This document shows positions 16,842 through 19,690 of a stretch of 64,000 bases of DNA, piece by piece. Under the pieces are notes generated by a model, which saw nothing but the letters and a program-made list of their open reading frames with translations, had not been told where the DNA came from and did no database searches. The DNA is from Hyphomicrobiales bacterium (lineage in GTDB: Bacteria > Pseudomonadota > Alphaproteobacteria > Rhizobiales > JAJFHB01). Numbering within the stretch: position 1 is the stretch's first letter; each line of letters begins with the position of its first letter. The stretch covers positions 1 to 64,000 of the forward strand of contig JAJFHE010000048.1 of the NCBI GenBank assembly GCA_021775755.1, in the 5' to 3' direction. The position numbers and the translations under genes are program-made.

Positions 16842-16926
16842 TGTTCGCGCAAAGCCCGTTTGGCCCGGGGGTCCTTGACATTTATTCGGTGCAGACCCGG
16901 TTCACGCCGTTGTATACAGCGTGATT

Positions 16927-18030
16927 ATGACCCAGGCCAGCAACGAAGACACGCGGCAATTGAGGCGCGGCTGGACCACCGGCGCTTGCGCCACAGCGGC
17001 GGTTCGCGCTGCATATGCGGCATTGCTGGACGGTGCGTTTCCAGATCCCGTGCAGATCGTGCTGCCGAGGGGCGAGACACCGTCATTCGCGCTGGCGGTG
17101 GAGGAATTGGGCGACGCATTCGCCCGCGCAGGCATCGTCAAGGATGCCGGAGACGATCCCGATGTCACCCATGGCGCGCTCATAATCGCGACCGTGCGGC
17201 GCGGAGAAGAGGGCGCGGGCGTGACATTCCATGCCGGGACCGGGGTCGGCACGGTGACGAAGGAAGGTCTGCCGATACCGCCCGGCGAACCGGCGATAAA
17301 CCCGGTGCCGCGCCAGATGATGCGCGATGTCGTGGCCCAGCTTGCGGCGCAACACAAAGATGCGGGCGACATCGCCATCGAAATCTCCATTCCCAACGGC
17401 GAAACGCTTGCCGGGAAGACCTGGAACCCACGGCTCGGTATCGTCGGCGGGCTTTCGATCCTCGGCACCACCGGTATCGTGCATCCGTTTTCCTGTTCAG
17501 CCTGGATCCACTCGATCCACCGCGGCATCGACGTGGCAAAGGCCGAAGGGCTGACCCATGTGGCAGGCGCCACGGGATCGACATCGGAGGCCGCCGCGCA
17601 GAAGCTTCATGGCTTGAGCGATCAGGCAATGCTCGACATGGGCGACTTCGTCGGCGGCATGTTGAAGTATCTGCGCAAACATCCCGTTGAGCGGGTGACC
17701 ATCGCCGGCGGCTTCGGCAAGATGACAAAGCTCGCGCAAGGGTTCCTCGACCTTCATTCAGGCCGCAGCCAGGTCGATTTCGACTGGCTGGCCGCCGCCG
17801 TCAAATCACTTGGCGCCGACGAAAGCATCTGCGAAAGCGCACGCACCGCCAACACGGCGGCGCAGGTTCTGAGCGATGCGGCAGCAGCCGCACCGGGGCT
17901 TGCGGACTACGTCGCCGGACAGGCGCTCTCATCGGCACGAAATACCTTGCGCAATGCACCGGTCCTGATCGACATCGCGGTGATCGACCGTGCCGGCGCC
18001 GTCATCGGGCGCGCCCGGGAGGATGGGTGA
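16927..18030 (+). CDS. cbiD: cobalt-precorrin-5B C1-methyltransferase
   Basis: About 367 residues. The N-terminus LRRGWTTGACATAA is the CbiD signature, followed by GVGTVTKEGLPIPPGEPAINPVPR and the C-terminal ITIAGGFGKMTKLA-type block. It methylates C1 of the corrin ring. It is the enzyme of the anaerobic route, but many alphaproteobacteria that lack CobF use a CbiD homologue alongside aerobic enzymes. ATG 16927 is preferred; GTG 16921 adds two residues. No clear ribosome-binding site is visible. The stop directly abuts the cobK start codon. Confidence 0.94.
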   Translation: MTQASNEDTRQLRRGWTTGACATAAVRAAYAALLDGAFPDPVQIVLPRGETPSFALAVEELGDAFARAGIVKDAGDDPDVTHGALIIATVRRGEEGAGVTFHAGTGVGTVTKEGLPIPPGEPAINPVPRQMMRDVVAQLAAQHKDAGDIAIEISIPNGETLAGKTWNPRLGIVGGLSILGTTGIVHPFSCSAWIHSIHRGIDVAKAEGLTHVAGATGSTSEAAAQKLHGLSDQAMLDMGDFVGGMLKYLRKHPVERVTIAGGFGKMTKLAQGFLDLHSGRSQVDFDWLAAAVKSLGADESICESARTANTAAQVLSDAAAAAPGLADYVAGQALSSARNTLRNAPVLIDIAVIDRAGAVIGRAREDG

Positions 18031-18768
18031 GTGGCGTGGGTTCTGATCCTCGGCGGCACGCGCGAAGCGCGCATGCTCGCAGAGCTCCTCACAAGCGTGC
18101 CGGGCCTTGATGTCACAACATCGCTTGTCGGGCGCACGCGCGAGCCGGCTCTTCCTGAAGGCGCGGTTCGGACCGGCGGATTTGGTGGCGCGGTGGGGCT
18201 CGCCGACTATTTGCGGGCAGAAAACATCGCCCTCGTTGCCGACGCCACGCATCCCTTTGCCGGGCAAATCAGCCGGAATGCAGTTACGGCCTGCGACACT
18301 GCAGGAGTTCCCTATGTGCGGCTTGAGCGCCCGGCATGGACGCCACGGCCCGGTGACGACTGGCAGCGCGTGGCAGGCATTCAGGCGGCTGCGGATGTTC
18401 TGGAGTCCGGTGCCACCGCACTGGTGACTGTCGGGCGTCAGGAGCTTGCGCCTTTCTTTGCACGAGGTGACCTTCGCTGTGTAGCGCGCATGATCGAGCC
18501 GCCGGAGATTGCCGTCCCCGGGAACTGCAAAATCATTCTCGCCCGACCGCCCTTTACGGAAGAGCAGGAGCGCACCCTGTTCTACGCCGAAGACATTTCG
18601 GTGCTGGTCACAAAAAACTCAGGTGGGACTGCAACAGCAACAAAACTCGAAGCGGCTCGCAATGCCGGTCTGCCCGTCATCATGGTTGAACGCCCGGCGC
18701 TGCCGGACGCAGAAACGGCGTCCGACGCGGAAACGCTTGCCGATGTCATTGCAGCCCGGCTCGGCTAA
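18031..18768 (+). CDS. cobK: precorrin-6A reductase
   Basis: 245 residues. N-terminal VLILGGTREARMLAELL, DATHPFAGQISRNAV, a VTVGRQELAPF segment and VTKNSGG are the CobK/CbiJ signatures. It reduces the macrocycle at C18-C19 using NADPH. The GTG start immediately follows the cbiD stop, so the two are coupled. The stop codon TAA (18766-18768) is directly followed by the terminal repeat of a MITE-like element, and the TAA is repeated on the element's other side. The remaining ring-methylating genes (cobI, J, M, H, L) are not in this window. Confidence 0.94.
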   Translation: MAWVLILGGTREARMLAELLTSVPGLDVTTSLVGRTREPALPEGAVRTGGFGGAVGLADYLRAENIALVADATHPFAGQISRNAVTACDTAGVPYVRLERPAWTPRPGDDWQRVAGIQAAADVLESGATALVTVGRQELAPFFARGDLRCVARMIEPPEIAVPGNCKIILARPPFTEEQERTLFYAEDISVLVTKNSGGTATATKLEAARNAGLPVIMVERPALPDAETASDAETLADVIAARLG

Positions 18769-19028
18769 TACCAAGGGCGGCAATTGTTGACCCATTTCAC
18801 CGGGATGATTTTGCCCTCCGGCAAGGCGCGTACTGCGCTGCGGTACAGGTACCGTAAGCAGTACGCAACGCTGCGGGAGGGCAAAAGAACCCGGCCTGCG
18901 GTGGGCCATTCCGGCCCGTCGACCGCGTTGCGGGCCCTGTCCGATACACCGCATCGCGCTGCGGCCCGCGCCTCCTCGCGCTCGCTGTATTGGCCATTGA
19001 ATTGGTTAAATAATGGCCGCCCTTGGTA
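18769..19028. mobile_element. MITE-like non-autonomous element, 260 bp
   Basis: Both ends start with the same 13 bases in inverted orientation: TACCAAGGGCGGC at 18769-18781 and its complement at 19016-19028. The similarity continues with about 26 of 31 positions matching. TAA occurs directly outside both ends (18766-18768 and 19029-19031), as expected for a short target duplication. The interior holds no transposase but a long imperfect palindrome. The frames open through it on both strands run past its ends and look non-genic. The element lies exactly at the end of cobK and next to a truncated transposase. The family name and the mobilising transposase are unknown. Confidence 0.75.
18809..18886. 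repeat. long imperfect palindrome inside the MITE-like element
   Basis: A 78-base inverted repeat. Arms run from TTTTGCCCTCC at 18809-18819 to GGAGGGCAAAA at 18876-18886, centred on CGGTAC-AG-GTACCG at 18841-18854. It would fold into a strong hairpin in RNA or single-stranded DNA and could act as a bidirectional transcription terminator-like structure just after cobK. A smaller GGGCC/GGCCC hairpin follows it. Confidence 0.7.
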
Positions 19029-19114
19029 TAATCCCCTATCCTCCAGATGGTTTGACATGATTGGCCTAATGGATTCTGGTTTGTTTAAGAAAATCAACTC
19101 ACAAGGTGGACTTT

Positions 19115-19690
19115 ATGTCGGGATTTCAGGGTGATGTTACGGGTGAACCGATTTCAACACCTTTGAAGATCGAATTTGACCGGCGTTTGAAGCTTCAGTT
19201 CCATGGTGCAATGCTGAGTTCAGACGGTGGGTTGATGATGTTTCGTAAGTTCGACGATGCCCTCGGCCGGACCGAGATGGCATCGTGGGAGTTGCGCGAT
19301 AGCCGCACCGGCAAGAACTCTCGCCATAATCTGCTCGCTATGTTCCGCCGGTCCGTCTTTGGTCGGCTTGCCGGATGTGAAGATGTCAATGATGCCGGGC
19401 GGCTCAGTCGCGATCCAGCAATGCGGGCCATTACGGGAACAAAGGACTTTGACCGGCCCGCAGCTTCGGAGAGTCAGATGGGCCGGTTCGAGACAGGCAC
19501 ACTCCCAAGCAGCAAGAATTTGACGGCGCTGGCAAATCTCAACGGCAAGTGGATTGACCGGGTTCAGCGTTTGCGCGGATCGACCAATCTGTTCCTTGAT
19601 ATCGATAGTTCCGAAAGCCCGGTGTACGGCGAGCAGGAAGCCTCAGTGGTCTTGGAAAAAGGAGGCGTTTATGCCAACAATTCGATCTGA
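19115..19690 (+). pseudogene. truncated IS1380-family transposase
   Basis: About 191 residues, only the N-terminal part of a transposase that is normally about 450 residues. IS1380 features seen are LQFHGAMLSSDGGLMMFRKFDD, RHNLLAMFRRSVFGRLAGCEDVNDA, SQMGRFETG and the catalytic-Asp region LFLDIDSSESPVYGEQE. After EASVV the sequence departs from the family and ends at a TGA after 14 more codons. ATG 19115 is preferred because AAGGTGG lies at 19103-19109. No partner terminal repeats were identified with confidence. It cannot be an active transposase as it stands. Confidence 0.85.

Follow-up and report, generated by a model that had tools for sequence, protein, structure and literature searches.

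According to the accessible part of its description, RUP of pneumococcus, an IS630-linked MITE, is short and non-coding, has IS630-like ends and occurs in many copies, as does the repeat family described here, but RUP duplicates TA whereas the present family duplicates a 3-bp TNA, has a two-arm covarying body and shows an excess of insertions at stop codons (PMC2229807). The CIR repeats of Caulobacter and Brucella, as far as the same source describes them, are also intergenic repeats with two inverted-repeat arms, but they are about 110 bp long, lack pairing between the 5' and 3' ends and carry a conserved GANTC, whereas members of the present family are 260 bp long with a 30-bp terminal stem (PMC2229807). 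With 28 terminal-stem pairs joining the ends of 260 bp, the element is not a CIR, which has two arms without end-to-end pairing in about 110 bp. ERIC and Correia/NEMIS are hairpin-forming MITEs like the present family, and ERIC is also found at gene 3' ends, but the accessible descriptions give both TA termini and an end-to-end stem without two arms, and no stop-codon rule appears in them. QMITE2 of Coxiella was compared by description, the accessible part of which does not state exact stop-codon targets. A literature search, with most subscription papers outside its reach, found neither a MITE described as targeting stop codons nor one with a covarying two-arm body of 260 bp.

The host genome is assembled in 77 contigs totalling 5.47 Mb, and the window, the whole stretch of DNA analysed here, is the 64 kb at the start of contig C43. 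The initial annotation had placed a 260-bp element right behind the cobK stop codon, and its coordinates are exact (Table 1). The element has terminal inverted repeats, and both figures previously given for them were reproduced, namely a perfectly complementary 13-bp core (13/13) and 26 of 31 matches over the extended ends; the TAA reported at each end is borne out by the sequence. Inverted arms of 37 nt with 81% complementarity were found by a repeat search. An element of 260 bp is too short to hold a transposase, in line with the earlier statement that none is present, and merely two short ORFs of 110 and 116 aa run across it (ORF list, no family assignment). The internal palindrome of 78 bases exists at 18809-18886 but is not perfect: its outer arms of 15 nt are 93% complementary and its BLAST self-match is 78%, and an ungapped comparison gives 44 of 78. 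Allowing up to 2 mismatches, the window contains the 14-base end three times (0.5 expected; three reached in 1 of 100 shuffles), and the two exact matches are both termini of the element itself. A tRNA search of the window gave no match.

Table 1. Features at and around the element in the window
Feature	Position	Strand	Basis
cbiD (context)	16921..18030	+	NCBIfam
cobK, cobalt-precorrin-6A reductase; its stop is the target	18031..18768	+	NCBIfam; length after conserved motif within range of 13 relatives
Left TNA target duplication (TAA), the cobK stop codon	18766..18768	+	sequence; identical TNA flanks in 44/57 family members
MITE, 260 bp, diverged copy (92.3% to host consensus)	18769..19028	+	within-genome BLAST, copy extraction, profile scan
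Terminal stem, left half (TIR)	18769..18798	+	consensus fold, end comparison, alignment column map
Hairpin arm 1	18800..18894	+	consensus fold with covariation; column map
Hairpin arm 2, weakly similar to inverted arm 1; right part diverged in window copy	18901..18998	+	consensus fold with covariation; column map
Terminal stem, right half (TIR)	18999..19028	+	consensus fold, end comparison, alignment column map
Right TNA target duplication (TAA)	19029..19031	+	sequence
IS1380-family transposase remnant, N-terminal part (context)	19106..19690	+	NCBIfam NF033539, 95.6 bits, below cut-off 180

The family to which this element belongs is a real, mobile and structured MITE family, and what is unusual about it is its placement on stop codons. 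With a probability of roughly 0.8, it is a family of ~260-bp MITEs with 25 copies in the host and further copies in 11 other genomes, which duplicates TNA, keeps its fold, is placed at stop codons and is mobilised in trans by IS630. In the proposed mechanism, an IS630-family transposase would move the ~260-bp element in trans and insert it at a 3-bp TNA, which would become duplicated on both sides. The element would act as folded single-stranded or cruciform DNA, so that the fold would be kept. The excess at stop codons would partly reflect a true target preference behind genes, aided by the harmlessness of such insertions, and at cobK an insertion onto the TAA stop would have recreated the stop and left the protein unaffected.

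Insertion duplicates a 3-bp TNA target, as the short target duplication of the initial annotation implied. Where both sides of an element carry TNA, the two flanks are the same in 28 of 33 cases, and in 44 of 57 in a wider set with one row per element; about a third would be identical by chance, given the base frequencies of the set of 33, and copies without TNA on one side, such as L009 and L010, lie outside these counts. The 13 of 57 paired elements without identical flanks count against the TNA duplication. The middle base of TNA is A or T in about 74% of ends off stops. An empty site is available for one member of the family: genome G354 has the order gene-TAA-element-TAA-flank, and its genus mate G389 has, at a locus 95% identical (L203), gene-TAA-flank. 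Since the two differ by exactly the element and one 3-bp copy, a TA duplication is excluded there and the target was a native stop codon. The more distant mates G255 and G287 have a TAG stop at that site and no element. Copies, duplications and an empty site together settle the mobility of the family.

Relatives of cobK were located in 19 of 25 related genomes (20 of 26 counting the host). The window protein has 52 residues counted from a shared motif onward, compared with 50 to 68 in the 13 relatives in which the C-terminus can be read from that motif. These comparisons support the view that the element landed on the TAA stop of cobK, the suspected duplicated target, and left an enzyme that appears unchanged and of ordinary length. 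The window locus itself yielded no empty site, the cobK relatives being too distant (31-54% protein identity). The element had also been proposed to have separated cbiD-cobK from the other corrin genes, a view that is not supported, as a 260-bp insertion with matching TAA flanks displaces nothing; since such flanks look like those of a simple insertion, the split of the cob genes is not creditable to the element, and any rearrangement of cob genes at this locus need not involve it. In some relatives the sequence after cobK resembles the tail of a convergent gene, as is typical of cobJ. Behind the window element lie an IS1380-family remnant, the ORF of which starts 77 bases past the element, and a gene matching acyl-CoA ligases (NCBIfam). 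This remnant was considered as the mobiliser and dropped, no common end being seen by eye.

Any TNA is TAA, TGA, TTA or TCA and so reads as a stop triplet on one strand, leaving one end per insertion testable. In the host, 14 of 46 TAA/TGA ends coincide exactly with the stop codon of a called gene, compared with 108 of 1740 intergenic TAA/TGA sites (~6%) in the same loci plus the window, three ends with short flanks having been dropped and three loci (L040, L095 and L096) having been excluded beforehand as chance end matches. Split by triplet, the host counts under strict matching of the ends are 9/29 against 27/668 for TAA and 2/7 against 86/1367 for TGA, and under loose matching 10/31 against 22/570 and 3/11 against 71/1164, respectively. 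In the relatives, with gene models trained per group, TAA gives 14/35 against 36/584 and TGA 3/15 against 62/1111; taken alone, TGA gives a weak signal in host and relatives alike. When each paired element is counted once, 16 of 52 testable insertions lie exactly on a stop (6 of 20 in the host, 10 of 32 in relatives), and 5 of the 57 are untestable. About a third of the testable insertions are thus exactly on a TAA or TGA stop, which is recreated, and the gene stays intact. Of the 11 groups that have testable elements, five have no exact insertion or too few for a judgement (G003, 0/5; G040, 0/2; G087, 0/2; G334, 0/1; G266, 1/5). Genes were called by a codon-usage script written for this analysis, and curated annotation could change these stop counts.

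The point of least certainty is the cause of the stop-codon excess, for which the preferred answer is a target preference in part, helped by the harmlessness of the insertions. The main alternative, selection only, supposes that the transposase inserts at any TNA and that the harmless copies behind genes survive; an insertion at the stop codon does not alter the protein, and the accessible part of a review places prokaryotic MITEs normally between genes and one of them mainly in 3' untranslated regions. This alternative has somewhat less than an even chance of being correct. Sites 1-30 nt downstream of a gene would also spare the protein, yet among ends 0-30 nt behind a gene 32 of 45 lie at distance 0, where 36% are expected, and among ends up to 60 nt behind a gene pointing at them 32 of 51 do so, where 23% are expected. 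Both expectations come from modelling the flanking base preference on ends off stops, with expected sites limited to genes with 60 free downstream bases and observed ends not so limited, and the observed ends include solo ends together with a few matches due to chance. At the G354/G389 locus, the element separates the gene from an apparent terminator hairpin about 30 nt down (by eye), which also counts against selection only. An age test in the host points the same way, copies on stops being no older than the others (8 versus 25, p 0.88; 16 copies unassigned to either age class), on a small sample in which at least one of the 25 is a chance match. If insertion is truly steered to stops, the family would follow a rule of target choice that leaves the host gene unharmed and can be read off the sequence.

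The body of the element is strongly folded, as the hairpin and internal palindrome of the initial annotation led one to expect; the two-arm fold, the covariation and the family-wide stop excess were absent from it. The RNA fold of 18766-19033 has an energy of -147 kcal/mol compared with -105.2 +/- 5.1 for shuffled sequences (z -8.2), none of 200 shuffles being as low. An alignment of 27 elements from 12 genomes (278 columns, mean column identity 70%) gives a consensus fold consisting of a terminal stem of 28 pairs and two hairpin arms, 88 pairs in all, of which 62 have at least one change on both sides. In this structure 93.5% of cells are paired, compared with 73.9% in shuffled alignments and 36-44% when the structure is slid; none of the 500 shuffles attains its values on four measures, and 4 of them do so on the number of further pair types. 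The shuffle controls are inflated by relatedness, which the slid control preserves, and the fold under test comes from the very alignment used to test it. The alignment indicates that the two-arm fold is kept through paired base changes. Copying of one palindrome arm onto the other during replication could also give paired changes, without selection. Arm 1 shows a weak similarity to the inverted arm 2, with a mean alignment score of 5.9 compared with -4.1 (sd 5.3) for shuffles.

The arms could instead be selected as RNA, as a terminator, a 3'-end stabiliser or a processed hairpin, as has been reported for ERIC and Correia elements, and the strength of the hairpins and the position of copies behind genes would suit such a role. 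This is unlikely, because the consensus energies of the two strands are equal (-118.8 and -118.9) and the wobble counts of pairs common to both strands run in opposite directions in the two arms, with 40 GU and 18 AC in arm 1 and 6 GU and 26 AC in arm 2. Nor is there an Rfam match above a family cut-off: none was found in the window at the gathering threshold, and among 14 loci searched with E up to 1 only two overlapping Thr-leader matches appeared on one locus (L159; E 0.07 and 0.7), below the family cut-off, so the element does not belong to a known structured RNA in Rfam. Since neither strand folds better and the wobble excess is opposite between the arms, a role at the DNA level is favoured, in which the fold would act as folded single-stranded or cruciform DNA. 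A covarying body argues against the customary view of the interior of a MITE as meaningless filler, and would make folding during transposition, or a benefit to the host, testable.

The most likely source of a transposase acting in trans is a set of IS630-family elements with similar ends, present in four genomes. In G040, the sequence inward of one end encodes an IS630-family transposase that is split across two frames and the N-terminal part of which has relatives in two of the 12 MITE-bearing genomes (G040 and G266) and none in the other 10, the host included. The G040 copy, of 1151 bp, starts TACCAAGGGCGGCA, has TACCACTTG at its other end and is flanked by TTA/TAA; the G266 copy, of 1161 bp, starts TACCAACGG, reads TACCGGCGG inward from its other end and has TAA on both sides. 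DDE_3 (PF13358) was matched in three of five genomes searched (G354, G003 and the host, with C-terminal fragments only in the host) and not in G046 or G334. G354 has a shortened IS630-family copy of 796 bp, flanked by TCA/TAA, the first 12 bases of which are common with most local MITE copies; at the locus of the G003 match no such ends were seen. In the host, contigs C29 and C44 each begin with an IS right end that starts TACCATCGG and lies beside TNA, with 5 bases identical to the MITE end (by eye). The autonomous relative with matching ends sought by the initial annotation is thus partly at hand, IS630 copies with similar ends being present, but the likeness is short and two of the three copies with both ends lack identical flanks. 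By eye, the likeness is confined to the first 5-14 bases, with their TACC start, and an inner TGAC, with 12-14 identical bases at best, and neither the G040 nor the G266 copy has TACCAANGG as its right end, which counts against the IS630 link. In the complete genome G046 no paired ends 0.8-3 kb apart enclose a transposase, and no transposase was recognised by eye in the open frames leading inward from host solo ends.

A DDE transposase other than IS630 might move the element. The IS1031 group of the IS5 family makes TNA duplications, and such an enzyme would fit the target seen here. The duplication is TNA and not the TA of the IS630 type, and the TNA duplication would be atypical if IS630 is the mobiliser, because IS630 is described, in the accessible part of PMC5678879, as targeting NTAN. 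On the other side, the IS630-family copies have ends starting with TACC, the inner TGAC motif and TNA flanks, so that a mobiliser outside IS630 is considered rather unlikely and mobilisation by IS630 is preferred.

The window feature is one member of a non-autonomous mobile repeat family with many dispersed copies, a MITE, as the initial annotation proposed. The copy search it called for was made by a profile scan of the host loci, which recovered 25 complete copies together with 20 pieces cut off by the end of a contig; two of these pieces may stem from one copy. The 25 full copies are 259-260 bp long and 91.9-98.8% identical to the consensus. A BLAST search of the element against its own genome, in which 40 of 118 candidates were scored, gave at least 85 matching pieces; many of these are palindromic arms that belong to the same copies. 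The element is neither unique nor without an empty site, either of which had been taken to speak against a mobile repeat: there are many copies, and an empty site exists for a relative of the window element. An ordinary intergenic palindrome fixed in the lineage and not mobile, to which the place of the window copy among the more diverged ones would be congenial, is contradicted by copy number, target duplications and empty site and has a negligible chance. The 20 host contig ends inside the element (in C16, C26, C27 and others) lie 117-205 bases in for 18 of the 20, and since these pieces are broken at contig ends, the element itself fragments the host assembly. Two shorter forms of 158-159 bp (L034 and L035) match one arm only.

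Among 61 genomes (60 relatives plus the host), 12 have a match, many to part of the element only. A pattern requiring both ends at the proper spacing was matched in 14 of 397 genomes from the order, of which 12, including the host, are judged real and are spread over seven families; the matches in G085 and G115, with no TNA flanks, are judged to be chance. A control pattern read backwards gave one match in each of 11 genomes, so that a lone match means little, and the single matches in G001, G051 and G389 were accepted because the whole element aligns. Because the end pattern brought up most of the relatives' copies, the ends that these have in common partly reflect how they were selected; for the host copies the pattern was not needed. 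A distant-mode search of plasmid and phage collections, possibly excluding records close to the host genome, gave no match. In one scan of a contig collection, with the same possible exclusion, a 25-base end pattern found a single contig, filed under a Phycisphaerales MAG, which holds a 260-bp copy with TAA flanks (L087:476-735) and is probably misbinned.

The body also occurs with other ends. Of 13 loci matched mainly via the body, 8 have CTAG/TAGA ends, 2 TACCAA and 3 are ambiguous (by eye); in the first class, CTAG or TAGA lies at or within 8 bases of the ends of an inverted-repeat element of 252-272 bp. The body likeness in BLAST matches suggests that ends may have been exchanged around a conserved body. 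A tentative extension, possible though rather doubtful, is that a transposition complex would seek TAA/TGA stops behind genes and that a selected two-arm body would be joined to at least two end types (TACCAA with TNA, and a CTAGA type), the body being the long-lived unit. The related bodies with CTAG/TAGA-type ends are in other genomes of the order (L066, L068, L074, L076, L077, L078, L079 and L081). Solo ends of ~12-36 bases are present at L039, L041, L053, L055, L090, L109, L138 and L141, and several adjoin gene stops as if the remainder had been deleted; for some, such as L041 and L090, a deletion through a TAA within the terminal repeat is suggested by eye only. At L142:2509-2537, a 29-base palindrome consists of two ends only, flanked by TGA and TCA, like a minimal relic of the element.
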